Shown here piece by piece: positions 903 to 20,650 of a DNA stretch of 21,989 bases. The stretch is from IMG/VR virus record IMGVR_UViG_3300023295_000015, positions 1 through 21,989 of that record. One strand, written 5' to 3'. Under the pieces are notes generated by a model. That model did no database searches and had not been told where the DNA came from. It was given only the letters and a program-made list of their open reading frames with translations. The stretch is from a virus. Position 1 is the stretch's first letter. Every line of letters begins with the position of its first letter. A program made the translations under genes and the position numbers.

Positions 903-2501
903 TTATGGGGCTGTTGTTCCCTCGTCTGTTATTCTTCCTTTCAATATCAATCCGATAATCGTTGCATACTGATCCTTCGTGCTTCCTGAAAAAGAAAGCC
1001 TCATATATCTACCCCTTGTTTTTAACTCTTGTCCGGCATAAGGTGTAAATCCATAATCACCGTCGTTAAAATATCTTTTGAATACTTTAGCGTCTGCACT
1101 TTCGTGCCATTTATCAACTCCCCAAATCATTGTTCCCCAACCAGCCTCGCTAGACGACAAGTTAAGGTTAGCTGTTGAATATCCACCGCTATCTCCTTGA
1201 AAATCAATCGTATAACCAAGGGTCATATTCCAGTCGCCTGATTCTTCCGTCCAAACAAACATTTCTTCAAACGCTTTATTAAACTCTCTAATTCCAGCGT
1301 CAAAGTATTTTGTTCTGTAAAACCAACTAATTGCAGTTCCATTATCATTCGTTCCAGTTCTTAATTTATGAACAGTTCCTAGTAATGTTTCCCCAGCATA
1401 AAGATAAGGCACATTCCCAGACTGATAAGAAGCAAAGATGTTAAATCCATAAGTAAACACACTCCAAGGGTATTCTACACGACCATACATATCCGCATTT
1501 CTAATATTCGTATCACAATATAAAGTTGTATCATTATCTGTTGCCGGGTCAATAGGAACAGATAATTCATACTTGTTGTTTAATACTCCGGCAGCACATT
1601 TATAAATAGCGTCTTGGTTTATTGTGTCCCACGTCCCCTGAATATTAACAGATACTTTTCTAACACCAATATTATCAAAGCTATAAACCGAACCGGAATC
1701 AGAAGAAGTTCCACCCAAAGCATAAACTCCATCTCTTGCTGCAAACCAAAGTTCCCCTTGAACGTAAGCAATTGATCTAGGAGCAACCAAACCAACTGCT
1801 GAGTTCACTTGGCGTAATTCCCAAGTAGTAGGGTCAGTTCCAATAATCATAAAGATTGAGTTTCTACCAAAGATAATAGGGCGACCAAACAAAACCGCAC
1901 CACCCATAATTTCATCACCGTTAGGAAGTTCTTCAAAGGCATCAATACCCCATGTTTCGTATTCCCCAGGATCGCACCAATAATATCTTGAAATATAATC
2001 TTTTCCTCTTAAAGCGAATATCCTTGGAGGGCTATGAATTGAAATTAAATAACTACAAGGGCTGGCTGGATATTGAGCTGTTTCTGCCATTGTTGAACCA
2101 TCATAAACTTGTAAGTTTTCTTCTCCGTTGGCAATATACATTTTTCCACCAACATTAACCATACTGCCAAACTTACCGTCGGTTAAGCCTGTCCCGGCTT
2201 CACCCCAAGTGCTACCAGATAATTTATATAACTTAGTTCCGCAGATAGAAAGAAAGTTTCTCGTTCCATCATACTCAACATATTCTGCTAATCCAACAAT
2301 CGGATTGTTGCTAATAACAGTTCCGTTTAATTCTTCGTATCCCCAACGAGTAGCGATAGGACCATAAGAGCTAAAAACCATGTTCTGAATATCAGAAGCC
2401 TGATTTTCTCTAACCAAAGTATTATGAGCGAAGTTATTTAAGCCTCCTGTAAAGTCGGCTAAATCTCCTCTAAATGTTATTCCTGATACTGAAAATGGCA
2501 T
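903..2501 (-). CDS. Tail hub / nozzle-like structural protein (beta-propeller type)
   Basis: About 532 aa. The N-terminus (MPFSVSGITFRGDLADFTGG, followed by LNN) and the following N/R-rich stretch ending in RWGYEELNG match the start typical of large podovirus tail proteins (P22 gp10-like or T7 gp12-like roles). In these, a 'GGLN...N...R.GY..LN' segment precedes a propeller of short strands. Residues about 60-350 contain many short strand-turn units; the last about 150 residues (from WFYRTKYFDAG) look like a separate beta domain. I chose the ATG at 2501 over a TTG at 2513 because the ATG overlaps the TAA of the adaptor gene (TAATG) and has GGGGGA just upstream. The gene follows the adaptor candidate, as expected for the tail part added next. 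The exact tail position is inferred. Confidence 0.72.
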   Translation of the reverse strand: MPFSVSGITFRGDLADFTGGLNNFAHNTLVRENQASDIQNMVFSSYGPIATRWGYEELNGTVISNNPIVGLAEYVEYDGTRNFLSICGTKLYKLSGSTWGEAGTGLTDGKFGSMVNVGGKMYIANGEENLQVYDGSTMAETAQYPASPCSYLISIHSPPRIFALRGKDYISRYYWCDPGEYETWGIDAFEELPNGDEIMGGAVLFGRPIIFGRNSIFMIIGTDPTTWELRQVNSAVGLVAPRSIAYVQGELWFAARDGVYALGGTSSDSGSVYSFDNIGVRKVSVNIQGTWDTINQDAIYKCAAGVLNNKYELSVPIDPATDNDTTLYCDTNIRNADMYGRVEYPWSVFTYGFNIFASYQSGNVPYLYAGETLLGTVHKLRTGTNDNGTAISWFYRTKYFDAGIREFNKAFEEMFVWTEESGDWNMTLGYTIDFQGDSGGYSTANLNLSSSEAGWGTMIWGVDKWHESADAKVFKRYFNDGDYGFTPYAGQELKTRGRYMRLSFSGSTKDQYATIIGLILKGRITDEGTTAP

Positions 2502-3358
2502 TAGTTCCCCCAATACTCCACAAAAGTTCTTTCCTTCGACCTTGTAAGCCCATCTGTAAGAGCCTTCTGAGCTAAACTTAACAACTGACCAATAGAGCCA
2601 ATATCTTTCGTTCTGTCTTTAGGATAAAGCCCTAGAACAGTTTTTAGTATTACACACTCGTCAACTTCGTTAGGAAGGTCGTATTTTAGTGCGTAAAGAG
2701 ATGATGTGTCCGGGTTTGTCGCCCAGGTTGCAACCGTAGCAACTTTAGTAGAGCCAACATAGTCTGTTATCTTTGCTATCTGCCCGGCACCTGTTCCAGA
2801 ATAAACGTCTATGTAAGCACCAATATAATAATCATCAATTTGTTTAACGGTATAATCGTTAGCAGTTGAACCGTTAGGAGTAAGGTCAAAAGTTAAAGAT
2901 GTTGCTGCAAGAGCTGAAACAGTTCCATAATGAAGATTAGGAATACGTCGCAGATAATAAATTGTAACATTGCCAGAAACATTAACTAAACCAACTTGAT
3001 TTCCCCACATATAATAAACTGGGTTAGGAGTAAAAAGGTCGTTATCAGCACGATACAGTTCTTTCTCGTCTACATTTATTGGGTCAACTTTTTGTTTCGT
3101 GCTTGTAACCTCAATTCTTTTTATCGAATCTAAATCTTTTGGTAAGTCATAAAGTTCTGTTCCTGAAACATAAGTAATACTTCCAGTTCTACCGTTTATC
3201 TTTTCGTTGATTGTATTGATAAGATTAACAAAATAAGTTTTAGACAAATTCATTTCTCTAAGAATTTCTGAATCACTCCATTTACCGGAAGTTATTCCTG
3301 TTTCGTCCATCTTTGTCCTAACCTGCTGAACCATCTCAAATGCGTTTAAGTTATTCAT
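2501..3358 (-). CDS. Head-tail adaptor (connector) candidate
   Basis: 285 aa. The N-terminal about 60 residues are helical (MVQQVRTKMDETGITSGKWS, then DSEILREMN), the pattern of phage adaptor proteins that dock under the portal ('...D....W...ei...lN.A...'). A central beta-rich insert follows (about 140-220, with TFDLTPNGSTANDYTV and GTGAGQIAKI). The C-terminus returns to helix with the motif LPNEVDECVILKTVLGLYPK. This helix-beta-helix plan, and the location between a small virion gene and the tail hub gene, fits the gp4 (P22) or gp11 (T7) role. The start has a GAGG site spaced 5 nt, formed by the end of the upstream gene. The family is recalled, not searched, and the adaptor role is inferred from architecture and order. 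Confidence 0.62.
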   Translation of the reverse strand: MNNLNAFEMVQQVRTKMDETGITSGKWSDSEILREMNLSKTYFVNLINTINEKINGRTGSITYVSGTELYDLPKDLDSIKRIEVTSTKQKVDPINVDEKELYRADNDLFTPNPVYYMWGNQVGLVNVSGNVTIYYLRRIPNLHYGTVSALAATSLTFDLTPNGSTANDYTVKQIDDYYIGAYIDVYSGTGAGQIAKITDYVGSTKVATVATWATNPDTSSLYALKYDLPNEVDECVILKTVLGLYPKDRTKDIGSIGQLLSLAQKALTDGLTRSKERTFVEYWGN

Positions 3359-3361
3359 TTT

Positions 3362-3781
3362 TTACCTCATACTTCTTAATTCTTCGATTCCGTCTTGGAT
3401 TCTGTGAAAATTTTCTTTAGTAAGTTCCTGAACAGCGTAAGAATTTCTCTTATCACGTTGTAACTTAAAGTTATCCTCATATTGTTCCATCTCCCCAACT
3501 AAGGCATTAAGACTGTCGTATCTTTGTGTGTCTGATTCTTTTAACTGGTCAATCACTCTGTAATCTAATTTTCTAAAACTTTCATCTTCGTTTTCTACGG
3601 TTAAAATATGATGAGCTTTGTTTTCTATTCTCATAAAGTTTTCTCCGTCAATAGTTCCAACTCTTTTAACAACACGACCGTTTCTGATAATCTGAAAGCG
3701 TTCTTTAACACTATCCCAATTAACGTCAAGATCCTTGTCTAAATTCTTTAACTGCTTAACAAATCCTTTGTCAACTATCAT
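3362..3781 (-). CDS. Conserved phage virion-region protein of unknown function
   Basis: 139 aa, charged, mostly helical in the C-terminal half. The opening motif FVKQLKNLDKDLDVNWDSVK followed by RFQIIRNGR, and the later LDYRVIDQLKESD, resemble a small protein that often precedes adaptor and tail genes in environmental tailed phages ('..LkklD..L.v.Wd..k.rw.I.r..'). I know no function for it. Residues 75-135 look like a coiled coil. It starts at an ATG with GGGGGATTAA upstream and ends three bases before the adaptor start. A role in the head-tail connector is only suggested by position. Confidence 0.65.
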   Translation of the reverse strand: MIVDKGFVKQLKNLDKDLDVNWDSVKERFQIIRNGRVVKRVGTIDGENFMRIENKAHHILTVENEDESFRKLDYRVIDQLKESDTQRYDSLNALVGEMEQYEDNFKLQRDKRNSYAVQELTKENFHRIQDGIEELRSMR

Positions 3782-3805
3782 TTAATCCCCCTTCTGAAAA
3801 AACCA
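3770..3805 (-). CDS. Possible 11-aa leader micro-ORF (MVFSEGGLNDS)
   Basis: An ATG at 3805 with a good GGAGG site (spacing about 5) opens an 11-codon frame whose TGA lies 9-12 nt inside the following 139-aa gene. The frame covers that gene's own GGGGGA site. It could be a coupling leader, or an accident of a site-rich boundary. Confidence 0.25.
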
Positions 3806-3840
3806 TTTTTACCTCCAGTTATTCTGCTCCGTGATACCTT

Positions 3841-3981
3841 CTATTTTCTGATGGTTGTTTGATCGAGAGTCTTTAAGTTGTGCTTAACTAATACATGAAC
3901 AATCCAAAGTATGGCGGATATAGATGATATTGTTATAGCTATTGTGGGTCCGAAATTCCTTACTAATTCAAACATAGTCAT
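3841..3981 (-). CDS. Small single-pass membrane protein (46 aa)
   Basis: The frame from ATG 3981 has AAGGAGG four nt upstream; a second ATG at 3975 is ten nt from the same site, so either start is possible. The product is MTMFELVRNFGPT followed by a hydrophobic helix (about residues 12-32, AITISSISAILWIVHVLV), then a charged tail ending TIRK. One membrane segment with an N-out, positively charged C-terminal tail is seen in small phage membrane proteins, including some holin-like or pinholin-like ones, but nothing specific marks it as a holin. It follows the signal-peptide gene cluster and fills most of an otherwise empty 247-base gap. Confidence 0.6.
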   Translation of the reverse strand: MTMFELVRNFGPTIAITISSISAILWIVHVLVKHNLKTLDQTTIRK

Positions 3982-4028
3982 GAGTCCTCCTTACTTTTCC
4001 TTCACCACAATAGGCTCTGCATTTTCTC

Positions 4029-7000
4029 CTAGTTGTCACTTCTTGAAATTTCATACCACGTTGATTCTCCAGAGTCCCAAGTAACCATCAACGTGTCTCC
4101 CTTTCCAAGAGTCATATCAACACCGCTAGAAAGTTCTACATTGTCCCCATCGTTAATCGTAACCGTATTGGTGTCGTGAGTTCCCTGGATGATACAAGTT
4201 TGACCGTCATTCTTTCCGTCATTTATGGCTGGGTCTGTGTCAAGAATAACTGCTCCACCATTCCCAACAACTCTCTCAATCTTGTCACCACAAGTTATTG
4301 CTCCATCATTTGCCATTGACTGATCTGCCCCATCACAAAAATAAATGTGATCGCCCATTGCAACCCAACCATCAGCATTTTCATCTGCTACAACAATAGC
4401 AGAACCAAACGATTGAGTGATATATAAATCGGCAACCCCGCTTATTAACTTCGTGGCTGGTGATAATGCTATCGGATAAACATCAGCGTCACCATCGTAA
4501 TCATAAGGAATATATGTCCTTCCGTTATCAATGGTATTGTCGGCAAGAGTAATTGTCCTTGCCCCGGCATCATCTCTTGACCCGATGTAAAAATAAGAAC
4601 CATCGGTAGTAATACTTCCAGAAGTTGTGTCCATCTCAAAGGCCATGCCCTCACCAAAAGAAATTGGAGCGTCGTTGCTTCCCGACATAATATTAACGTG
4701 TGTGGCTTGGAATGCCCCTATATTGATAATGCCACCAATAGAACCTCCCCCGGGAGTTCCAGTATCAAACTCAAGATTTCCCACAGGCCCACCAGAGGTA
4801 ACATCCCCGCTTGTAATATATACGCTTCTTGTGTCGGTCGAAGATGTCGGCTCTATAACAATGTCCCCATCAGCAGTCAAGGTATAATCAGCAACTCCTG
4901 AATCGTGAAATGCTGTAACCTGTGGAACAAAGACACTAGTGGCTAAAGTATTCTCAAAACCATAAATCAATGACCCTGCATCTGGGTTTCCAGTTTCCCC
5001 GCCAGTGGCTTTGAACGAAGCGGCAGTTTCCCCTTCGGCTAAATCCTCGGCATAAACATACCCAGCAAAAGCGGCAGAATTATCAGCCGCAGTATAAAGT
5101 ATACTTTGCACATTTTCGTAATCATTAGTTGTAATCTCGGCCGCACCAGCACCAGCAGTAAAAGATCCAATCGCAACCGTGCGAGCAGTTTCATCTTCAA
5201 CATCAAATAGTGTATCTGGGGTAGGGTCTCCTATTCCAACATTTCCTGCGTCTGCCTCAACAATTAAGCCATATTCCCACGTTCCCGAAACTGTGATTGC
5301 TGCCTGACCTTCAAACGTAAGGCTGGAATTTTCTATATTAAGTCCGAAAGTATCATCTTCAAACCCAGTTATTGTAGGATCTAAAACAATGTTCATTCCA
5401 ACTAATTCCCCTGACGCTCCTAAAGCGGTAGGTCTTACTGTTAAATCAATACCAGTAATGGTAGGTGCGGCTCCAGAACTTTGAGAAAGTAATGTCATAA
5501 GAGTAAACTCATCTGAGGGAGCGTCTACTTGAACATTAACTCCGTTAAACCCAATATCAACGTATGGATTTCCGCCTCCTAAAATTTGAAATGATCCATT
5601 TGGGTCGGTTACGTCATATGCTAAATCATATGCACCAAGAGTAGTGGTTCTAGTTTCCGTCAATGTTCCACCTAATCTTACAACTGAGCTTTCCTCGATT
5701 ACGCCATCTTGAAAAGTTATTGCACCTTGATAGTCCGTTCCTTCGGCTGCTATTACCACGTCACCATTTGGAGCAAACGCCCCTAATATTCCACCAACCG
5801 CCCAGCCTGAACTTCTTAACCCACCATTGGCAGCGATAACTCCTACGTCTGATTTTATAGCATAATTTGTTCCTGTGCCTGTTGCACCTGAAACATCAAG
5901 ATTTATTCCAATGTGATCCTGGTTAGTATGAGTTCCAGCCAATTCTATTTTTGCACCAACCAAATCTTGTGCGGCATCAGTTGCTTCTGGTGTTGCATAA
6001 ATATATAGCCCTTGAAAGCCCCACGTTCCGTCAGTTGTTCCATAAATTCCTAGCCCTATTCCATCTTTAACTTCGGCAACAATGACGTGTTCGTCTGAAT
6101 CGGCTTGTCCAGTATCTCCCCTTGTCGCAACAATGTTAGCATTGGAAAAGTCTATTGGGTTAGCGTCTGTTCCAAAAAATGATTCGTTATCAACAAACAT
6201 TCTATCCTCAACTTCTAAATTACCTCGAAGAAAAGCAGAACCTTCTGATGAAATTGTCTCAAACCTTGCTCCGCCAGAATATTCGCTTTCACCAACTACA
6301 AATAATCCGGGTCTTGACCCATCTTGACCACCACCAATTTCAAAGCAAATATCACCGCCAGGAAAAGCGGCTAGTTCAGAGCTGTTTGTCCTAAACATAA
6401 GATCAAAGGCTTCCTCTGTTCCTTCACTAACAGCCTCCATAATAAAATCATCATTGAATCCTAAAAGATGTCCGTTAAAATCTCCAGTAAAGGTTATACC
6501 GAAACTGCCCGGATTATCCTCGCTTACTGTTTCAGATATGGCGATATTATCAATGTATTCAGTATGAGTGTTGCCAAACCCTACCGAGAATCCAATGTAT
6601 ATTTGATTTGCTGCCGGAGCTTCAAAAGTCGTAACTGAAAATTGTGTGTATGCTCCAGTTGTTTCTGCATTGAAAATATTATCATTCCCTTCACCGCCCG
6701 GAGTATAAGCATCCCATTCTTCGTTTGTGAAGTTATAAATTTCTGTTGCAGTTGCAGGGGGAGCATCCCAAAATATGGCACAAATATTTCCCGGAGCTGA
6801 TTCTGCACTTCCGTAAAATGTAACTGTATATTCTGCACCTTCTACTACATCTTCTACTAATTGTGCAAGAATAATTGCTTCGTCAGTTGTGCCGAACATC
6901 TTTCCTGAATAAGTTCCAGCATAAACATTGACTGATTCTTGCTCAAGAGTAGCAGGTGTAGCCATTGGAGAGCCTACGGTAAAAATATCCCAATCGGTAG

Positions 7001-7646
7001 GATTGAAAGCATCATCCCAAAGTTCTAGTGTTCCATTTTCTGTAAGGTTAGGAGTAGCAACAGACCATCCATTATCATTAGAAGCAATCGCTAACGCACC
7101 TATTGAACTACTTGGTGAATCATCTTCGTTGCGATTTATCAAAAGACTTTGAACAAAGGCTGTTTCACCAGGTGTAAGCCCAGATGACCTATAATTAACT
7201 TGAAACAAAGAAGGAACCTCTTCGTCTGGAACCACCTCAGTAACAACCTCGCTTGAACCAATGATAACTGAATCCGTTAGTGTAGCAGGGTAGATCGCTC
7301 CGTTTACAGCGTCCCTTTCCCACAAACTAACAACTGAAGTATCAACTGCCCAATTTCCATCACCAATACCACCAACTAATCGATAAACTAAGTTTGTATC
7401 AATTTGATAGCAAACCATTCCTTCAACACGACGTGCAGCAGTTATGGACAATCTATCTGCTTCATCATCTGCAACCTTGTAAGAACCTTGAATTTCTTCA
7501 GAGAAACCAGAAGCAAAGGTATTGGCATTATCTCCGACGGTAATCCCGGCAGATACAATCGTTCCTGTTTTTGTAGAAATTCCAAAAGCTGGCGTTAAGC
7601 TTAACAGAATCACCACGACTGCTATTAAATATTTTAATTTATTCAT
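4029..7646 (-). CDS. Large tail-fibre-like protein with N-terminal signal peptide and CBM-like domain
   Basis: About 1205 aa. I prefer the ATG at 7646 (MNKLKYLI) to the one at 7652, because the AAGGAG site is 8 nt from the former and 2 nt from the latter. Residues about 1-22 are a Sec-type signal peptide (basic MNKLK, hydrophobic AVVVILLSL, then PAFG). A fibre-type motif GMVCYQIDTNLVYRL, then GGIGDGNW, follows at about 79-101. Residues about 203-375 look like a carbohydrate-binding jelly roll (AGTYSGK, EGAEYTVTFYG, EYIDNIAISE). The middle is repetitive beta structure with NVGIGDPTPDTLFDV near 805, a variant of the 'NVGIGTTSP..LDV' motif common in fibres. The C-terminus (CIIQGTHDTNTVTI, then LGKGDTLMVTW, YEISRSDN) matches a common end of environmental fibre proteins. 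No S74 chaperone domain is evident. Receptor binding is the likely role. The signal peptide is unexpected for a virion fibre. Confidence 0.75.
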   Translation of the reverse strand: MNKLKYLIAVVVILLSLTPAFGISTKTGTIVSAGITVGDNANTFASGFSEEIQGSYKVADDEADRLSITAARRVEGMVCYQIDTNLVYRLVGGIGDGNWAVDTSVVSLWERDAVNGAIYPATLTDSVIIGSSEVVTEVVPDEEVPSLFQVNYRSSGLTPGETAFVQSLLINRNEDDSPSSSIGALAIASNDNGWSVATPNLTENGTLELWDDAFNPTDWDIFTVGSPMATPATLEQESVNVYAGTYSGKMFGTTDEAIILAQLVEDVVEGAEYTVTFYGSAESAPGNICAIFWDAPPATATEIYNFTNEEWDAYTPGGEGNDNIFNAETTGAYTQFSVTTFEAPAANQIYIGFSVGFGNTHTEYIDNIAISETVSEDNPGSFGITFTGDFNGHLLGFNDDFIMEAVSEGTEEAFDLMFRTNSSELAAFPGGDICFEIGGGQDGSRPGLFVVGESEYSGGARFETISSEGSAFLRGNLEVEDRMFVDNESFFGTDANPIDFSNANIVATRGDTGQADSDEHVIVAEVKDGIGLGIYGTTDGTWGFQGLYIYATPEATDAAQDLVGAKIELAGTHTNQDHIGINLDVSGATGTGTNYAIKSDVGVIAANGGLRSSGWAVGGILGAFAPNGDVVIAAEGTDYQGAITFQDGVIEESSVVRLGGTLTETRTTTLGAYDLAYDVTDPNGSFQILGGGNPYVDIGFNGVNVQVDAPSDEFTLMTLLSQSSGAAPTITGIDLTVRPTALGASGELVGMNIVLDPTITGFEDDTFGLNIENSSLTFEGQAAITVSGTWEYGLIVEADAGNVGIGDPTPDTLFDVEDETARTVAIGSFTAGAGAAEITTNDYENVQSILYTAADNSAAFAGYVYAEDLAEGETAASFKATGGETGNPDAGSLIYGFENTLATSVFVPQVTAFHDSGVADYTLTADGDIVIEPTSSTDTRSVYITSGDVTSGGPVGNLEFDTGTPGGGSIGGIINIGAFQATHVNIMSGSNDAPISFGEGMAFEMDTTSGSITTDGSYFYIGSRDDAGARTITLADNTIDNGRTYIPYDYDGDADVYPIALSPATKLISGVADLYITQSFGSAIVVADENADGWVAMGDHIYFCDGADQSMANDGAITCGDKIERVVGNGGAVILDTDPAINDGKNDGQTCIIQGTHDTNTVTINDGDNVELSSGVDMTLGKGDTLMVTWDSGESTWYEISRSDN

Positions 7647-7658
7647 TTTCATTTCTCC

Positions 7659-8456
7659 TTATAATACCTGTATAGAATATGTGCCAGTTAAAAGATTGTT
7701 CGTTCTGTAAACATTATAATTTACTGCATAACCAGAAGCGTTCTCGTGTGATTGAACAGACAACGTCCAGTCTGTATTAGCTAATCCATTAACTTTGAAA
7801 GTTGCTGTTCCGAAAGAAGCTGGATAAGCAACATAAATATATTGTGCAGCAGGAGTAATGGAAAATGTGCTTGCTCTTGAAGTTGCAAAAGCTCCAGTCG
7901 CTAACGCTAAAATTCCTGCGTCATTAACCGTTGCTTCACTTGATGCCCCGTGCCAGGCTTTATCTCTAAAATATAAAGTAGTTGTATCAGTATCATTTTG
8001 AACCGTGTCAGCAACAGTAAGAGTCCATGTATTATTAGTTGTATAGCTTGCGTTATCATCAACTGTTCTAAGAGTTGCTGGAGTTAAAACCCCGACACCA
8101 CTATCAATAGCCTCGTAAGTTATAGTCTTGTTGACTGTCCAGTCAAGCGTGTTAGCTGAAACAGTTGCTCCTTTCTCCGCCACACTAACTGAATTAGTAA
8201 AGGTTGTTACTTCAGGGGAAGTATAAAGCAGATAATCTACTGCGTCTTTCAATGAATCAAACGAACCAAAATCAACATTAGTGTAATAGATAGCGTCGTT
8301 AGTTAAAACACCTGTCATTTCATCACCAGTTTTTAGAACGTATCTAATATCACCTGCTGATCCTTCACCAACATCAGGCTTATCGAATACAATTCTAGCG
8401 TTACTAACTCCAACCAGCAGCGACAACGCCAATATCGCTAGAAATAATTTCTTCAT
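7659..8456 (-). CDS. Signal-peptide-bearing fibre-like protein
   Basis: 265 aa from ATG 8456, which has GGAGGG about 6-8 nt upstream. A longer frame opening at 8579 is rejected because its extra 41 residues overlap the upstream gene and precede an obvious signal peptide. That peptide is MKKLFLAILALSLLVGVSNA (residues 1-20), with an A-x-A-like SNA cleavage site. Just after it comes YVLKTGDEMTGVLTND, a version of the 'L.tGD.MTG.L' motif typical of T4- and lambda-type fibres. The rest is Thr/Ala/Ser-rich beta sequence without recognised domains; its C-terminus (NASGYAVNYNVYRTNNLLTG) looks like a small beta sandwich. Its TAA lies inside the ribosome site of the 1205-aa gene, so the two are tightly coupled. 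It may be a shorter partner of the large fibre. Confidence 0.7.
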   Translation of the reverse strand: MKKLFLAILALSLLVGVSNARIVFDKPDVGEGSAGDIRYVLKTGDEMTGVLTNDAIYYTNVDFGSFDSLKDAVDYLLYTSPEVTTFTNSVSVAEKGATVSANTLDWTVNKTITYEAIDSGVGVLTPATLRTVDDNASYTTNNTWTLTVADTVQNDTDTTTLYFRDKAWHGASSEATVNDAGILALATGAFATSRASTFSITPAAQYIYVAYPASFGTATFKVNGLANTDWTLSVQSHENASGYAVNYNVYRTNNLLTGTYSIQVL

Positions 8457-8469
8457 CTTTTTTCCCTCC

Positions 8470-8835
8470 TTAATATAATCCCCAAAATCTAAAATTGACA
8501 TCTCCAGTTTTTGCCCTAACCTTAATTCTGTTAGTAGTAAAACTATCAGGCGAAAAATGCTCGTTATTCTTAATAACACAAACAGTTGCCTCCGTAGTCA
8601 TCTGATACTCATTCGTGGTTTCTCCAGTAAAATCAACATATACCTCAAGAGTAGAATCATTAACAAACAATAACTCCTGGGCGATTTTACCTCTATCATC
8701 CTTATCAACAACTTTAATCGCTATTGACGCTTCAGCAGTTGCCGTTCCTTCGTAATAGAAAACCTTGGAACTAATAGCAATAGAAACACTCGACATTATA
8801 CCGACGACAAGAAACATTAACAATAACTTTCTCAT
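8470..8835 (-). CDS. Small exported protein with signal peptide (virion or accessory)
   Basis: 121 aa; ATG with GGAGGG eight nt upstream. Residues 1-20 (MRKLLLMFLVVGIMSSVSIA) form a signal peptide. The mature part is beta-rich; the segment AQELLFVNDSTLEVYVDFTG resembles the 'lf..N.s...l.v.vn' pattern of small phage tail-tip or fibre-base proteins, recalled from memory. The single cysteine of the mature part, in ATVCVIKNN, is not followed by a lipobox context, so a lipoprotein is unlikely. Its stop is 13 nt before the start of the next signal-peptide gene. I cannot assign a function. Confidence 0.65.
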   Translation of the reverse strand: MRKLLLMFLVVGIMSSVSIAISSKVFYYEGTATAEASIAIKVVDKDDRGKIAQELLFVNDSTLEVYVDFTGETTNEYQMTTEATVCVIKNNEHFSPDSFTTNRIKVRAKTGDVNFRFWGLY

Positions 8836-8861
8836 TTCAACCCTCCATATTTAATATTTGT

Positions 8862-9105: not shown

Positions 9106-10083
9106 CTAAGTAGCCTGGATGGCTTCTCCGCCATTCACAGCATTTGCAGCACCACTCGCATTGTATATGCCAGTAGCATTAGCAAAATCATCCGCACCGA
9201 TAATCGTGCAATCCTTTAACAGAATATATCCGACTGTTAAGGAAGCAGCAGCTGTCAATCCATTCGCCATTGACGCAGCAGCTAACTTTGTGTTGAAGAA
9301 TAAGCAGTCTTTGAACAACAACATTCTTTCAACGTCAGCAGCACCAGCCGAGTGAATAAAACTATTAGCAACCTCGCCAGCATTTCTCCAGAAGAAACAA
9401 TCCTTAAAGGTTACATCTCTGCAAGACTTACCAGAAATTGTTCCTGTGGTTAGCAACACACAAGGTCTTGCCCCTGTTGCTGTGATTGCATTAGCGTTTG
9501 ACCCGATTGTGCAACCTTCATACTTGGAACTATCACCATTACAAAGAAGTTCAGCAGCGTCGTCCTCGTCTAAATCAGTTGATTTGTAGAACTCACAATT
9601 CGTAAACTGTGTATATTCTCCACCATCTGCAACTGTATAAAGACTTGCGGCAACTGTGCTTGAACTATCAAACTTGATATTGGTAAAAGAAACAGCTTGT
9701 CCTGTAACCTGAACAAGTGCAATATCGGCAGCAGTAGTAGAATCACCCATTGTAATTCTTGCTCTTTGACCATAATATTTACCACCAACATCAGCACCAA
9801 GAAAATGAACCTTCCTCTTTGTAACACTTAGCATAGAGGTTAGAGCATGACCTTCAGGAGCAAGAATAATAACATCATTCCTGTTCGTTACGGTCTGTGC
9901 ATAAGCGGCAGCAAGTGTTAGAAATAAATCTCCGGCTGGAACTTCATTACTCCAACGATCATACAATGGAGATGTGGAAGGGCATACATACAAAATTCTA
10001 CCCATTCCCGGTCCAACTCCGCCACCTGCAATCTTTGAAAGTGAAATCGCTGCGTCTGGAGCTACGTTTCTATTTTTTATCAT
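9106..10083 (-). CDS. Beta-helix-like structural protein downstream of capsid gene
   Basis: 325 aa; ATG with AAGGGGG eight nt upstream. The N-terminus NRNVAPDAAISLSKIAGGG resembles the 'aaAaIalSKia' segment of phage fibre and decoration proteins. Residues about 60-310 contain repeating short strands ending in Asn/Asp/Cys turns (VSFTNIKFDSS, YTQFTNCEFYKS, CRDVTFKDCFFWRN, RMLLFKDCLFFNT, GYILLKDCTIIGA), the ladder pattern of right-handed parallel beta-helices. Five of the rungs carry FKDC/TNC-type turns in register. No catalytic lyase residues can be named. Being the first gene after the capsid gene, a head decoration or tailspike-like part is plausible. The role is inferred. Confidence 0.68.
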   Translation of the reverse strand: MIKNRNVAPDAAISLSKIAGGGVGPGMGRILYVCPSTSPLYDRWSNEVPAGDLFLTLAAAYAQTVTNRNDVIILAPEGHALTSMLSVTKRKVHFLGADVGGKYYGQRARITMGDSTTAADIALVQVTGQAVSFTNIKFDSSSTVAASLYTVADGGEYTQFTNCEFYKSTDLDEDDAAELLCNGDSSKYEGCTIGSNANAITATGARPCVLLTTGTISGKSCRDVTFKDCFFWRNAGEVANSFIHSAGAADVERMLLFKDCLFFNTKLAAASMANGLTAAASLTVGYILLKDCTIIGADDFANATGIYNASGAANAVNGGEAIQAT

Positions 10084-10172: not shown

Positions 10173-11489
10173 TTAAGCTGGTTGTCCGGCTTCAATATCA
10201 GTTAATCGTCCGTTTTGGTTTCGGGCAGTAACCGCAAACTGTGAATACCAGTAAAGGATTGCCTCATAAGCGTCCTCACCAGATACACGAGAAAGGATTG
10301 CTCCGTCTTTGTCCATCCAGTCCCAATTACTTTCTTCAAACAACGTCAAGGATTTCATTGTAAGGAAATACATATCATCCCTTGTGCAATCTGAATCAGT
10401 AACAACTGGAATACCGTTGAAATCAACAGAAGTATAACCACCTTTTAACTTTGTAGTCAAAAAGCGTTTATCTGCTCTAAGCAAGCTAACTAATTGTCTG
10501 CGAATAGCTCTGGTTGTGATAATCAAATCACAATTACCGCCATTATCAGCAATATCGTCAACTACTTCGTCCATAAGATCTTCGGTCAATGCTCTGCGAG
10601 TAGGAGCAACTTTACCAGAAACCCTTGGAGTTCCGGATTCCTTAACAACAGCTTTCCATTCTGGATAAGAATTGATGTCTACTAATCCTAGAGTGTAGTT
10701 GCCAGCAGGAGTTCCATCTTGGTTCCACCAATCAGCGTCCTCAGGACAGTTTCCATCATCCACAAGCAAACGCAAACCATTAAGTTCCTTAGAACTCGTG
10801 TCGTCATTTGATCCAGAAGCAGCATACATGGAACCATAAGCTCCTAGTAAATCTCCTGTAACCGCACTTGTGAAAACACTTCCATCAAAAGGAACAGATG
10901 TGTTAGTAGCAGTTCCGTTGACAGCACAAGCGGTTGCACCATCAGCAGGTCTGAGCGTAGAATAATCGTCAACAGTCAACATTTGAATTGGTCTGTTATC
11001 AGGCAAGTATTTACTTGCGTCGTGATATAAACCCATAACGGTTAAAGGAGTAGTAACAGTATCACTGTTATTAACAGCTAACGCACCAGTAGAATCACTA
11101 AACAACTGTCTGTTTACGTCTTTTTTAACGTCTAAAACTAAACCTTTGATGTTAGCGTCAACTGCTTTAGCGAAAGCACCTTTGTCGTTCTTAGAGGCTT
11201 GGATTGTAGGACCAGTAACTTTCAGGCGACCATAGTTATATTTCATCTTCCATTTGGAAGCAACATAACCTTGCTGCCCTGCGGTTGGAAGTGTGCCACC
11301 ATCAGCCCTGGCACCAGTTCCGTTGTTCCTACTCATGTGCAAAGGAATTACTCCGTATTTACCAGAGATGTCCTTAGAATTGCGAGATACCTTTTCAAGA
11401 AGTATCTTTTCTTGACTTAACTGTTCTCGAATCGGTCCTACATAGACTTCTTTAAGAACAGCGTCAAAGTTTGACATATTTTGAGCCAT
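10173..11489 (-). CDS. Major capsid protein
   Basis: 438 aa; ATG with AGGAGG about 8 nt upstream. The N-terminal segment (FDAVLKEVYVGPIREQL, then KILLEKVSRN) followed by GKYGVIPLHMSRNNGTGAR and LPTAGQQGY is the pattern of a HK97-fold capsid family common in environmental podovirus-like and siphovirus-like phages. In that family a flexible N-arm leads to a Gly/Arg-rich loop. The run VTGPTIQASKNDKGAFAKAV matches the next conserved helix. Length is normal. It lies immediately after the scaffold gene, the usual order. No protease gene is seen, so maturation may rely on the separate scaffold rather than on delta-domain cleavage. Capsid identity is firm; the exact fold is recalled, not modelled. 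Confidence 0.88.
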   Translation of the reverse strand: MAQNMSNFDAVLKEVYVGPIREQLSQEKILLEKVSRNSKDISGKYGVIPLHMSRNNGTGARADGGTLPTAGQQGYVASKWKMKYNYGRLKVTGPTIQASKNDKGAFAKAVDANIKGLVLDVKKDVNRQLFSDSTGALAVNNSDTVTTPLTVMGLYHDASKYLPDNRPIQMLTVDDYSTLRPADGATACAVNGTATNTSVPFDGSVFTSAVTGDLLGAYGSMYAASGSNDDTSSKELNGLRLLVDDGNCPEDADWWNQDGTPAGNYTLGLVDINSYPEWKAVVKESGTPRVSGKVAPTRRALTEDLMDEVVDDIADNGGNCDLIITTRAIRRQLVSLLRADKRFLTTKLKGGYTSVDFNGIPVVTDSDCTRDDMYFLTMKSLTLFEESNWDWMDKDGAILSRVSGEDAYEAILYWYSQFAVTARNQNGRLTDIEAGQPA

Positions 11490-11501
11490 TATAATTTCCT
11501 C

Positions 11502-12290
11502 CTAGTTTTGATTAGCAAGGAACTCAGTTGCAGCGTCAAGAGTGTTCTCACCTAGAACGACCTTTCCTGCCTTGGGTGCGGTAACTGTTCCACCGGCTCC
11601 CTCAGCTCCACGTTTTGCTCTCTTTTCAGCCTCGTCCAGATAATTCTTTTGCCAAGTAGCTCTCACTTCAAGTTCTTTCTTGTGAGAGGCTTCGGCAAGA
11701 GCCATAATATCTGCGTCTGGTCTGAACCTTAGAGTAGCAAAAATACTATCGTCATTCATCAGCTCGAATTTATCCTTAGCTTCAGCTAGTCGCTTACTGA
11801 GATCTTTCTGGATTGTAGTAACCTCACGTTCAAACTTCTCCTTCGTTTGGATTGCTGTTAGTTCATCAACCTTTCTAGCAACTTTTGTGAACTCATCTTC
11901 CTCCTCAATTTCTTGATTAGGATTAGTAGGGTCAACAGCAGGAACAGGAGCCGGTTTGGTTTGGTTATCCGCAAGCCATTTCTCAACAGAAGCATTTGCT
12001 AACTCATTCGCCTTGGATTCCACGTCTTGATTATACTGTCCAACTTTCTGAGCATAGTGTCTACCTTGCTGTGCGTAATCCAACACTTTACTCAACGGAA
12101 GGCTCTCCTCTTTCCCATCAACTTTCAGCGTGTGCATGGCTTCTGCTGGAGTTGCTGGTTCCGGGGTCGGTTCTTCCAATTTAGGTGTAACTTCAGGATC
12201 TACAACAGGTTCAGGATTGGTTGCTACTGGAGCAACTTCTGTTCCAAGTGGATCTTGATTCGTTACTTCTGCTTCTACTTCTAATACCAT
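11502..12290 (-). CDS. Capsid scaffolding protein
   Basis: 262 aa; ATG with AGGAGG five nt upstream. The N-terminal 50 residues are acidic and Pro-rich (PEPVVDPEVTPKLEEPTPEP). They are followed by TLKVDGKEESLPLSKVLDYA and QQGRHYAQKVGQY (about 54-86), the 'v.vdGke..v.l.el...aqkG..y..k' module seen at the start of many phage scaffolds. A long charged coiled coil fills residues 85-235 and a short basic C-terminal segment ends the protein, fit for capsid binding. It is encoded directly upstream of the capsid gene, as scaffolds usually are. It would act inside the procapsid and leave before DNA entry. Confidence 0.82.
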   Translation of the reverse strand: MVLEVEAEVTNQDPLGTEVAPVATNPEPVVDPEVTPKLEEPTPEPATPAEAMHTLKVDGKEESLPLSKVLDYAQQGRHYAQKVGQYNQDVESKANELANASVEKWLADNQTKPAPVPAVDPTNPNQEIEEEDEFTKVARKVDELTAIQTKEKFEREVTTIQKDLSKRLAEAKDKFELMNDDSIFATLRFRPDADIMALAEASHKKELEVRATWQKNYLDEAEKRAKRGAEGAGGTVTAPKAGKVVLGENTLDAATEFLANQN

Positions 12291-12339
12291 TTTTTCCTCC
12301 TAGACAACTTATTCAATTAAGAACATTAGTTGTATGAAA

Positions 12340-12750
12340 CTACTGAACTGGCGGAACTCCTGTTCCTTGTGCTGGCGTTCCTCGATTCTGTCCTTCCTGT
12401 GGAGTGCCTCTCATCTGTCCAGGTTGACCCGGTGCCGGTTGTCCTGGCTGTGGTTGCCCACCTCCTTGAACTGATTGCTTGATTTCCTCGATAACAGCTT
12501 GAACTTGACCAACAACTTGTGCCAACTTATCTGCTTCTGCTTTGTGTCCCATCATTCCCATTCTCGAAGCAACTGCATTGAGCAAATTGATTGCTGTAAC
12601 TGCTGGAGCTTGCTGCTTGCCACCAGGTTGACCAGGCTGACCGCCAGCGTTAGCTCCTGGAGCTTGCGGAGCTTGAGCTGGAGCAGGTTGTTGATTTTGT
12701 GCCGGAGCTTGCTGTAATCGCCCTATTGCCTCTTGTTGCGGATTCATCAT
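12340..12750 (-). CDS. P/Q/G-rich virion-region protein
   Basis: 136 aa; ATG-ATG start with GGAGGG upstream. Both ends are low complexity: residues 1-50 are Gln/Pro/Ala-rich (QAPAQNQQPAPAQAPQAPG) and residues 96-136 Gly/Gln/Pro-rich (QPQPGQPAPGQPGQMRGTPQ). The centre (about 51-93) is one amphipathic helical pair (AINLLNAVASRMGMMGHKAE, then ADKLAQVVGQVQAVIEEIK). Such proteins occur between portal and scaffold genes in several environmental phages, with unknown function. The composition resembles the portal protein C-terminus (PAEPAPGQAPEAPGGQPEQ), which may point to a shared origin or partner. Confidence 0.65.
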   Translation of the reverse strand: MMNPQQEAIGRLQQAPAQNQQPAPAQAPQAPGANAGGQPGQPGGKQQAPAVTAINLLNAVASRMGMMGHKAEADKLAQVVGQVQAVIEEIKQSVQGGGQPQPGQPAPGQPGQMRGTPQEGQNRGTPAQGTGVPPVQ

Positions 12751-12769
12751 TTATACTTCCCTCCTTTTT

Positions 12770-17825: not shown

Positions 17826-18064
17826 TACTTCACCTTCAAAATACTATTTACTCCACTCTTTTGCTTGGCAATCTGTTCTCTCTGAGCTTCAACGCCTTTT
17901 TTAGTTTCTTCGTTCTTAGCCCGGAGCTGCTTGGATTTCAAATCTTCTATCTCTGCGTCTTTATGAACAACCAAGGCAACCAACTCTTGCTTCTCTGCTT
18001 CCTTGTCGTTCAGTTGTATCTGAATCGTTACGGTTTTAGGAACTATTACTTCTTCTGCTTTCAT
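17825..18064 (-). CDS. Small coiled-coil protein
   Basis: 79 aa. Residues 18-72 are highly charged and helical (NDKEAEKQELVALVVHKD, LKSKQLRAKNEETKKGVEAQ), a single long coiled coil. The first 16 residues (MKAEEVIVPKTVTIQIQL) form a strand. Start ATG overlaps the TGA of the GroES-like gene (ATGA), with GGAGG about 6 nt upstream. The function is unknown. Coupling to the co-chaperonin gene may mean a linked role. Confidence 0.6.
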   Translation of the reverse strand: MKAEEVIVPKTVTIQIQLNDKEAEKQELVALVVHKDAEIEDLKSKQLRAKNEETKKGVEAQREQIAKQKSGVNSILKVK

Positions 18065-18384
18065 TTTGTTTCCTCCTTTATTACTAATTCAACATCACCC
18101 TGCGTAAGTAGAATAACTGTATTATCAACTGCTTTGACTTTTAACCCGGTGTATCTATGAAAAAGAACGGTGTCGCCTTCCTTCACAATCATTTCTTCTC
18201 TCTTGCCTTCTGCTCCCATCTTGCCCTTCCCGGCTTTAATAACAATCCCGGTAAAGAACTTCTTGGCGTTCTCGGTTGTAGGAGCAATAATTATTCCGGA
18301 TGAAGTTTTCTTTTCTTCTTCAACAGGTCTAACAGCTATGCGATCCCCTAGGAGAGTAAGATTATCTAATTTACTTCTTAGCAT
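18061..18384 (-). CDS. groES: GroES-like co-chaperonin (Cpn10)
   Basis: 107 aa, close to GroES length. LLGDRIAVRPVEEE (11-24) is the first barrel strand pair ('pL.DRvlv....e'). KKTSSGIIIAP (25-35) is the mobile loop that holds the GroEL-binding hydrophobic tripeptide (III here), followed by GIVIKAGKGKMG, the 'G.V...G.G' strand. VKEGDTVLFHRYTGLKV matches 'v..GD.Vlf..y.G..v', and ILLTQGDVELVIKEE the final strand. All core elements are present. No GroEL gene is in the window, so the protein would work with host GroEL, as T4 gp31 does for its capsid. It overlaps the upstream membrane gene by 14 nt; the nearest AAGGAG is 13 nt upstream. Confidence 0.88.
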   Translation of the reverse strand: MLRSKLDNLTLLGDRIAVRPVEEEKKTSSGIIIAPTTENAKKFFTGIVIKAGKGKMGAEGKREEMIVKEGDTVLFHRYTGLKVKAVDNTVILLTQGDVELVIKEETK

Positions 18385-19638: not shown

Positions 19639-20042
19639 TTCTCCCCCTCCTTATCTAGCACTTGGATTTCAAGTGAAACTATAACATCTTTGTATTCCAA
19701 ATTATTTACATCTTCTGGTAGATAAATAAAACTATTTCCATAAATATCCGAACTAACAGAAGAAGAAAAAACATAATCCCCCTCAGCTTTTTTGAAGTGC
19801 TGGCAGAGATACTTTAACCAGCCCCAAACATAACGAGCATTTAACATTGATTCCCCACAATCTTCAAGTTTATCTCCATCTAGTAAATTAGCTTCAAAAT
19901 CTTTCTTTAATTCATTTTCCCTAAACGATTCAAAAGAATGTGTGGGGACTTCAATAGATATTATATTCATAGTTGTTTTATCTAAGTCAAATTCTTTAGC
20001 TGCTTTATTTAGGTCTTTGAGCAATATATATTCTTCTGCCAT
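19635..20042 (-). CDS. Hypothetical protein after the methyltransferase (135 aa)
   Basis: Not recognised. ATG overlaps the TAA of the methyltransferase gene (TAATG) and has AAGGAG nine nt upstream. The N-terminal 65 residues are acidic and helical; residues 68-100 hold YVWGWLKYLCQHFKKAEGDY, then SSSVSSDIYGNSF, and the end is a strand pair (DVIVSLEIQVLDKEGE). Tryptophan/tyrosine clustering suggests a compact domain. Coupling to the MT-A70 gene is the only functional hint. Confidence 0.6.
   Translation of the reverse strand: MAEEYILLKDLNKAAKEFDLDKTTMNIISIEVPTHSFESFRENELKKDFEANLLDGDKLEDCGESMLNARYVWGWLKYLCQHFKKAEGDYVFSSSVSSDIYGNSFIYLPEDVNNLEYKDVIVSLEIQVLDKEGEK
19642..19662 (-). repeat. 21-nt direct repeat, copy A (gene end plus ribosome site)
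   Basis: Perfect match to 19508-19528. It encodes the VLDKEGE near the C-terminus of the 135-aa protein and contains the ribosome site of the next gene. The copies are 134 nt apart in the same reading frame relative to the ends of the two genes. Confidence 0.85.
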
Positions 20043-20650
20043 TATTTCATCTCCTTAAGTAAATCAATATCGCTTTCAACTTCGTTCCCCCATACATCCC
20101 AGCCTTCTTGTTTTTCTCTGGCAAATAATTCTATACGAGGTAAATCACCAAATAATCTTACAATTTCATTTCTTAAATAACTAGGTTTTGAACTATGTCT
20201 ACCTCTAGGATATATTTGAATTTGTTTTACATTTTTAACCATTCTTTTTGGTGAGCCTTTTTTTGCAAACAAACAAAGTTCTGCATTTCCATTTACCCAA
20301 TGTCCCATTCCACTATAAATACCTCCTTTTATTTCAACATCTGGCATTGTCCTACCTTCTATTTTTTTTTCAATCAATTCTGCATTAGGGTTTATTTTAA
20401 TCCAATTAAATAAACAAGTCTTATAATTAAAACCCCACGCTTTTATAAGCTCTAAGCCCTCTTGTAACATTGGCATTGTAACCCACATACAAAGAACACT
20501 ATCTTTATCAGCAATTTCATTTACTTTAAATCCTTTCATTTCTTTTAATGTGGTTGTTTTATATGTAATTCCTCCCATAGCAGGGTCATTGTTTTTCTTA
20601 TCTTTATAATCCCAAGCTGGGTCTGCGTATATTATTTTATATTTCTTCAT
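20042..20650 (-). CDS. MT-A70 family DNA N6-adenine methyltransferase
   Basis: 202 aa, compact size as in phage MT-A70 enzymes. The catalytic motif is YADPAWDY (D10-P-A-W13), the DPPW-type motif with Ala at the third place. The SAM-binding region follows in GHWVNGNAELCLFAKKG (about 120-136), and RGRHSSKPSYLRNEIVRLFG with RIELFAR (about 150-180) is the conserved end. It would methylate adenine in DNA, probably to evade host restriction. The start has GGAGG ten nt upstream within the 57-nt repeat, and it is preceded by the MKKVWLARDKH micro-ORF. No restriction enzyme is visible, so it looks like an orphan enzyme. Confidence 0.9.
   Translation of the reverse strand: MKKYKIIYADPAWDYKDKKNNDPAMGGITYKTTTLKEMKGFKVNEIADKDSVLCMWVTMPMLQEGLELIKAWGFNYKTCLFNWIKINPNAELIEKKIEGRTMPDVEIKGGIYSGMGHWVNGNAELCLFAKKGSPKRMVKNVKQIQIYPRGRHSSKPSYLRNEIVRLFGDLPRIELFAREKQEGWDVWGNEVESDIDLLKEMK

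Follow-up and report, generated by a model that had tools for sequence, protein, structure and literature searches.

Paired Sec-type leaders on a two-part tail-fibre set suggest export of receptor-binding proteins by some tailed phages

Three consecutive minus-strand genes in a 21,989-base linear virus record (IMGVR_UViG_3300023295_000015, the whole of which we call the window) encode proteins of 121, 265 and 1205 amino acids (aa), sit between the capsid gene and the adaptor gene, and each open with a Sec-type leader. The latter two, here named A and B, are two subunits of a tail-fibre (receptor-binding) set of very diverse tailed phages, and export tags on both proteins of this widespread two-part set suggest that the fibres are shipped out of the cytoplasm. 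Judging from sequence, we consider it somewhat probable that A and B form a Sec-exported pair that joins virions at lysis.

Three consecutive genes start with Sec-type leaders

The genes and their leaders are laid out as follows (SD, Shine-Dalgarno site).

8470..8835, minus strand: Gene 1, small protein with Sec-type leader, 121 aa; leader 8776-8835; SD GGAGG at 8842-8846
7659..8456, minus strand: Gene A, 265 aa, leader plus two immunoglobulin (Ig)-like beta domains; leader 8397-8456; SD AAGGAGG at 8465-8471
4029..7646, minus strand: Gene B, 1205 aa, comprising leader, conserved N-terminal domain, long body and depolymerase-type C-terminal domain; leader 7581-7646; SD AAGGAG at 7655-7660

An earlier note on this DNA had placed Sec signal peptides on these three genes and held that ribosome sites support their starts; open reading frame (ORF) calls and a leader rule agree on both counts. 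An SD precedes each start (8835, 8456 and 7646), at a distance of 6 bases for the 121-aa gene (GGAGG) and of 8 bases for the 265-aa (AAGGAGG) and 1205-aa (AAGGAG) genes, the last site overlapping the stop of the 265-aa gene. Mechanical ORFs extend further upstream—to 306 aa for the 265-aa gene and 1207 aa for the 1205-aa gene—and we preferred the shorter frames because of their ribosome sites. No SD-backed internal start was found at residues 9-60 of either A or B, and a leaderless product is therefore not evident.

With the predicted cut marked by a slash, the leaders read MRKLLLMFLVVGIMSSVSIA/ISS (121-aa protein), MKKLFLAILALSLLVGVSNA/RIV (265-aa protein) and MNKLKYLIAVVVILLSLTPAFG/IST (1205-aa protein), where the third cut was set by eye and the script had cut after ..LTPA. 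All three proteins pass a rule-based test for Sec export and signal peptidase I cleavage, comprising a positive n-region, a hydrophobic core and a small-x-small site. This rule is home-made and was loosened after both leaders of one related locus, L029, had failed its strict form. When residues 2-41 were shuffled, 459 of 5000 sequences passed for the 121-aa protein, 96 of 5000 for the 265-aa protein and 505 of 5000 for the 1205-aa protein. Among the ORFs of the first fetched loci, 18 of 419 passed the loosened rule, eight of these 18 being members of the gene families described here; the 121-aa gene lies outside this count, being overlapped by the longer frame of 306 aa. The leader background is thus about 2%, and three in a row would arise by chance at roughly 1e-5 if independent. 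Lipoprotein superinfection blockers of the Llp type carry a lipobox with Cys at +1; no such lipobox is present here, the residues after the predicted sites being I, R and I or F.

A and B form a two-part fibre set

Profile, synteny and fold all confirmed the earlier note's view of the 265- and 1205-aa proteins as fibre-like, and the GDEMTGVL motif that it had pointed to in the 265-aa protein is present. A close-relative scan with the 265-aa protein found no relatives, and tblastn of the whole 1205-aa protein, or of its N-terminus alone, against named phages returned nothing; the way into named phages was the 265-aa protein as query. Relatives of A were thereby found in Tunturi_5 (gp28, annotated as tail fiber) and in the Bacteroides phages DAC19 and SJC03, as well as in gut phage contigs, and the gene after A in all three named phages encodes a long protein that shares its N-terminal domain with B of the window. 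Scans of virus and genome collections, together with a profile survey of 4756 ORFs, gave 100 rows of B, from which contigs already fetched by another scan had been dropped and in which near-identical contigs were kept (e.g. L034-L046, L006/L007, L051-L053; fetched loci carry L numbers). Alignment A1 and the 12-row A5 held no stretch suitable for scanning. A lies directly upstream of B on the same strand in 80 of the 100 rows, and the two are separated by 6 bases, as ORFs, in the window.

Two parts of B could be delimited.

7320..7580, minus strand: N-terminal domain of B, conserved and presumed to dock on the virion (residues ~23-109; alignments A2, A5, A10)
4056..4229, minus strand: Phage_depo_C match, residues 1140-1197 of B (Pfam, 26.4 bits against a cut-off of 25)

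The conserved G, RR.GM and Y.L.GG positions of the N-terminal domain are present in B of the window (alignments A2, A5, A10), and the C-terminal match, of marginal score, is to a depolymerase-type domain. B also matches PHROG 24134, a virion structural protein (E-value (E) 4.9e-4), and no catalytic Pfam domain was found in it at E 0.1. The motif resembling a carbohydrate-binding module (CBM) that had been ascribed to the 1205-aa protein is weak: the match, to CBM9_1 (E 0.00077, below the Pfam cut-off), falls on the 121-aa protein instead.

An AlphaFold model of mature A built from 42 aligned rows reached a mean predicted local distance difference test (pLDDT) score of 86 and folds into two Ig-like domains; a first model from nine rows (pLDDT 44) was not used for fold search. 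Against predicted viral structures (BFVD), the mature model gave 42 matches at E up to 0.001, including tail fiber, tail and baseplate wedge proteins. We rejected any assignment of function to A from folds in the PDB, where the matches were generic Ig/CBM sandwiches only (best Foldseek E 2.9e-4, with a template-modelling score of 0.24; best Z 8.5, with a root-mean-square deviation of 2.3 over 80 residues, 2c26).

Some loci depart from the simple A-B arrangement. A patatin-like phospholipase gene (L016 5961-7004, E 2.2e-24) stands between A and B of a leaderless pair, and in L020 an A gene and a further B gene flank a single ORF (5352-6989) that opens with a B domain and closes with an A domain.

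Leaders occur in pairs ahead of the conserved domain of B

Comparing relatives with and without the leader, as the earlier note had proposed, we found leaders on both genes in eight of the 80 A-B pairs, on neither in 71, on A only in one (L086, marginal) and on B only in none. The eight are the window, L006 and its near copy L007, L029, L066, L096, L103 and L110, that is, the window plus six distinct relatives. Leaders on A and B thus co-occur (Fisher p 3e-10, a value overstated because the rows are related). A further leader-bearing pair, in L120, lies downstream of genes read as tail and baseplate (one tested: no Pfam match) and has a B with a Peptidase_S74 match; it was left out of the counts because its scan query (A11) contained the leader. 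With leader-bearing A or B as queries, named phages yielded no cultured leader-bearing relative.

In nearly all rows a leaderless B starts at the conserved domain, at or near residue 1 (MAxIxGTNV..), and the leader sits just ahead of that domain: B of the leaderless L097 begins MRNTGTLVGAQ where mature B of the window begins ISTKTGTIVSAG in a pairwise alignment. L029 is the exception, with a leader at the N-terminus and an internal B domain near residue 775-780. The domain is found by profile in all leader-bearing B proteins.

Leader-bearing loci also differ in style. SD sites are present in the window, L006 and L113, and missing from L029, L066, L096 and L103. In these last four a small residue near the likely cut is followed by Q, and from this leader style and the missing SD sites we take them to be Bacteroidota-hosted. 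L066 has two further leader-bearing genes after its leader-bearing pair (11074-12303 and 12317-12760), four in a row. L113 is a gene at a contig end of a lake-sediment bacterial genome, with a leader and a B domain 51% identical to that of the window (A10); L113 190-1428 and L116-L119 make up a family of leader-bearing, surface-like GIGTT-repeat proteins, one with a phage-type B domain behind its leader.

We built trees from 50 rows of A domains, having dropped L007, L052, L053, L056, identical ends and short domains; for a second tree the window and L006 rows were trimmed of the leader, which made up the first 18 residues of their matched stretch. On the quick tree the leader label needs three changes. 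An approximately unbiased (AU) test rejected a single clade of all seven leader-bearing A rows (p 0.0017) and did not reject the six rows together without L110 (p 0.47). Since the single clade is rejected, paired leaders have changed—arisen or been lost—at least twice, gain and loss being indistinguishable by counts; three origins, favoured by the quick tree, were set aside, only two being secured by the AU test. Leaders of the window and of its relatives differ at 11 of 20 residues in A, 13 of 22 in B and 13 of 20 between the 121-aa protein and its L004 counterpart, all still passing the rule. Random drift to the same distance keeps the pass in 18-31% per leader and direction, a joint chance of about 1%, which is modest evidence that the leaders have been kept despite divergence.

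A fibre-body swap between two virion types

The window phage is short-tailed and of the SU10 type, with an SU10-type capsid and adaptor and a P22-type portal (Pfam, PHROG matches). L006 (IMG/VR 3300005915) is a myovirus-type record with a tail sheath and a capsid family that differs from the window's. DNA identity between the two changes abruptly within B.

7285, unstranded: approximate recombination breakpoint in B, residue ~120 (DNA identity, window against L006)

Before the break, identity is 38-85% over A and B up to residue 120 (58-85% within B); after it, most sampled windows are 95-100% identical (90% lowest within B), a stretch that covers the remainder of B and enters the following gene. 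This pattern is that of a fibre-body swap between two virion types, and a break just after the conserved N-terminal domain is typical of tail fibres, whose bodies move and whose virion-specific ends stay. We regard the swap as the strongest sign that leader-bearing B may still work on virions, since a protein secreted to act on its own would have no need of a phage-specific N-terminus.

The 121-residue protein and the surrounding genes

The 121-aa gene may be a separate matter from the fibre pair. Its protein has weak CBM9_1/DUF3244 matches below the Pfam cut-off, and no profile link to fibres was found in Pfam or PHROG or by tblastn against named phages. A 32% identical relative in the phage record L004 keeps a leader of its own although no leader-bearing A-B pair was seen there, which would fit a separate role. 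The 121-aa protein is probably exported too; to make it a partner of A-B would be a guess.

A virion-gene neighbourhood surrounds A-B in the window, with the capsid gene upstream and the adaptor gene downstream (Pfam, PHROG).

10173..11489, minus strand: major capsid protein, SU10 type (Pfam SU10_MCP, E 1e-5; PHROG 14242, E 6.9e-65)
2501..3358, minus strand: SU10-type head-tail adaptor (Pfam SU10_adaptor, E 6e-9)
3841..3981, minus strand: holin-like 46-aa ORF with a single transmembrane segment (no Pfam match)

The holin-like ORF lies near the end of the swapped stretch, and at 46 aa compares with a 96-aa counterpart in L006 (9562-9852). Adjoining the capsid gene is a 325-aa protein (9106-10083, minus strand; no Pfam or PHROG match), a candidate second appendage whose start, MIKNRN.A..A..LSKIAGG or close to it, is common to L004 10704-11696 and L005 9856-10752. 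The window further encodes a GroES-like co-chaperonin (18061-18384, minus strand; Pfam Cpn10, E 9.9e-20) and an MT-A70 type methyltransferase (20042-20650, minus strand; E 5.8e-26). A GroES-like ORF was also recognised by eye in L004 (642-950), whose large terminase gene is interrupted by an intein (2582-4729; Intein_splicing match just over the cut-off). Upstream of the capsid gene of L007, a 799-aa protein (1759-4158) contains a domain of ATP-dependent DNA ligases (E 7.4e-26), and the N-terminal part of this protein resembles, by eye, a prohead protease.

Proposed export of the fibres and the alternatives

From these observations we infer export and cleavage of A and B, virion docking by the conserved domain, and docking after export. 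Late synthesis of the two proteins would be followed by passage through SecYEG, removal of the leaders by signal peptidase and folding outside the cytoplasm; at lysis, or as virions meet the envelope, the N-terminal domain of B would dock the finished fibre on the virion. Sec export of A and B is highly probable, and leaders that look real and are paired on A and B lend support to the earlier note's suggestion that these proteins may be secreted. For docking on virions after export the balance tips slightly in favour. The broader proposition is more tentative, possible though a little short of probable: that in some tailed phages receptor-binding fibres are put together outside the cytoplasm, Sec-exported subunits maturing in the periplasm or outside and being added at lysis, and that diverse phages came to this state on more than one occasion, both genes of one pair acquiring leaders.

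Several points weigh against such exported, virion-joining fibres. Tailed-phage assembly is known as a cytoplasmic process, and 71 of the 80 pairs do without a leader. Among cultured phages of Bacteroidota, PTm5 carries an A-type gene (detected by fold, not by profile) beside a B-domain gene, neither with a leader, and Bacteroidota hosts therefore do not require leaders. Both L029 leaders pass only the loosened form of a home-made rule. The window and L006 could form one clade with L029, L066, L096 and L103 (AU p 0.47), leaving three origins insecure. No second, leaderless pair was seen in the six records with leader-bearing pairs, which may be incomplete and could have a leaderless copy or another fibre elsewhere. 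Cysteine content runs opposite to what export might lead one to expect, at 1.3 (A) and 3.5 (B) per 1000 residues in leader-bearing proteins against 3.4 and 5.2 (significance uncomputed); a need for disulfides is thus not indicated, and we discarded Cys content as the reason for export.

Our most likely account remains a Sec-exported pair that joins virions, the chief alternative being fibres that are secreted and stay apart from virions. A and B would then be free fibres rather than virion parts, coating the infected cell, debris or competing receptors and so blocking re-infection, keeping progeny off debris or helping adhesion; Llp of phage T5 offers a comparison for the blocking of re-infection. 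This would explain the leaders without an unusual assembly route, would fit a window that has another, non-exported candidate appendage in the 325-aa gene beside the capsid gene, and has a parallel in chromosomal L113, where leader and B domain sit on a host-secreted-like body outside any recognisable virion operon. We nevertheless find it rather unlikely, given that profiles still pick out the N-terminal domain in every leader-bearing B, that in the swap the body moves and this domain and A remain phage-specific—a free decoy would need no phage-specific N-terminus—and that the six records show no second, leaderless pair. The earlier note had also raised the idea that the hydrophobic ends are attachment anchors of a new kind of fibre. 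The h-regions could span a membrane, and the N-termini might stay on, either holding A and B in the cell membrane or lying buried in a virion joint; each window leader, however, ends in a small-x-small pattern about 20-22 residues in, L029, L066, L096 and L103 show Q right after the small residue near the likely cut, and the conserved domain that sits right behind the leader is itself the start of leaderless relatives. The anchor idea is accordingly not supported, and we judge it improbable.

Still less probable is that the genes are hybrids whose leaders arrived with pieces of host genes for secreted surface proteins and do nothing specific for the phage. The L113 genome does encode several secreted GIGTT-repeat proteins with leaders, which the L113 body matches at 37-39%, and B of the window contains an NVGIGDPTPD stretch; yet B of the window matches that genome only via its first ~137 residues (46%) and not via its body, the leaders have been kept under divergence, and hitch-hiking would hardly place leaders on A and B alike in separate lineages. 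That the leaders are chance hydrophobic starts or the product of wrong start codons we consider very improbable: about 2% of ORFs do pass the loosened rule, but the starts are fixed by ribosome sites, the diverged leaders of relatives still pass, and leaders are paired on A and B.

Implications and comparison with known systems

Host range depends on tail fibres, which in the textbook view of tailed phages are built within the cell. If the Sec-exported pair does join virions, assembly would be split between compartments, with fibres joining at lysis and perhaps shared in the medium between co-infecting phages; alternatively, there would be a class of secreted fibres acting without the virion. 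Further cases are easy to find by a simple sequence rule, namely that A and B both carry leaders and that these precede the conserved domain. A signal peptide alone is, moreover, unsafe ground for calling a gene on a viral contig cellular; in extracts of one paper, the absence of signal peptides is counted in favour of an origin from phages (PMC6199706).

In the literature searched, much of it in extract and with most subscription journals outside it, we found no published case of signal peptides on tail fibres. Phage proteins on host Sec or secretion machinery are described, in extracts, for secreted endolysins and filamentous-phage assembly (PMC7143992, PMC4823517), which differ in being lysis enzymes or membrane-assembled virions and not tailed-phage fibres. 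SU10 (Kuravirus) shares capsid and adaptor families with the window and has a two-protein long fibre, gp12 proximal and gp13 distal, for neither of which the extracted text of the report mentions a leader (PMC9509320). Compared with PDB sequences, including for homology to gp12/gp13, the A profile had no hit and B one chance-level match, to tachylectin (E 0.39).

Closer likeness is found among relatives of the pair itself. In the Bacteroides phages DAC19 (genes 87-88) and SJC03 (genes 81-82) the A domain forms the C-terminus of 87/81 and the B domain the N-terminus of 88/82; unlike in the window, there are no leaders, and A is fused behind an N-terminal part of ~350 residues. The Tunturiibacter phage Tunturi_5 has, like the window, an A-type then a B-type gene with the same domains, 4 bases apart (gp28-gp29, annotated as tail fiber proteins), whereas neither carries a leader, the B domain starts at residue 1 and the phage measures 308 kb. 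L006 resembles the window in having three leader-bearing genes of matching order and place, and differs in its 122-aa first gene, which is not clearly related to the 121-aa gene (about 20%).

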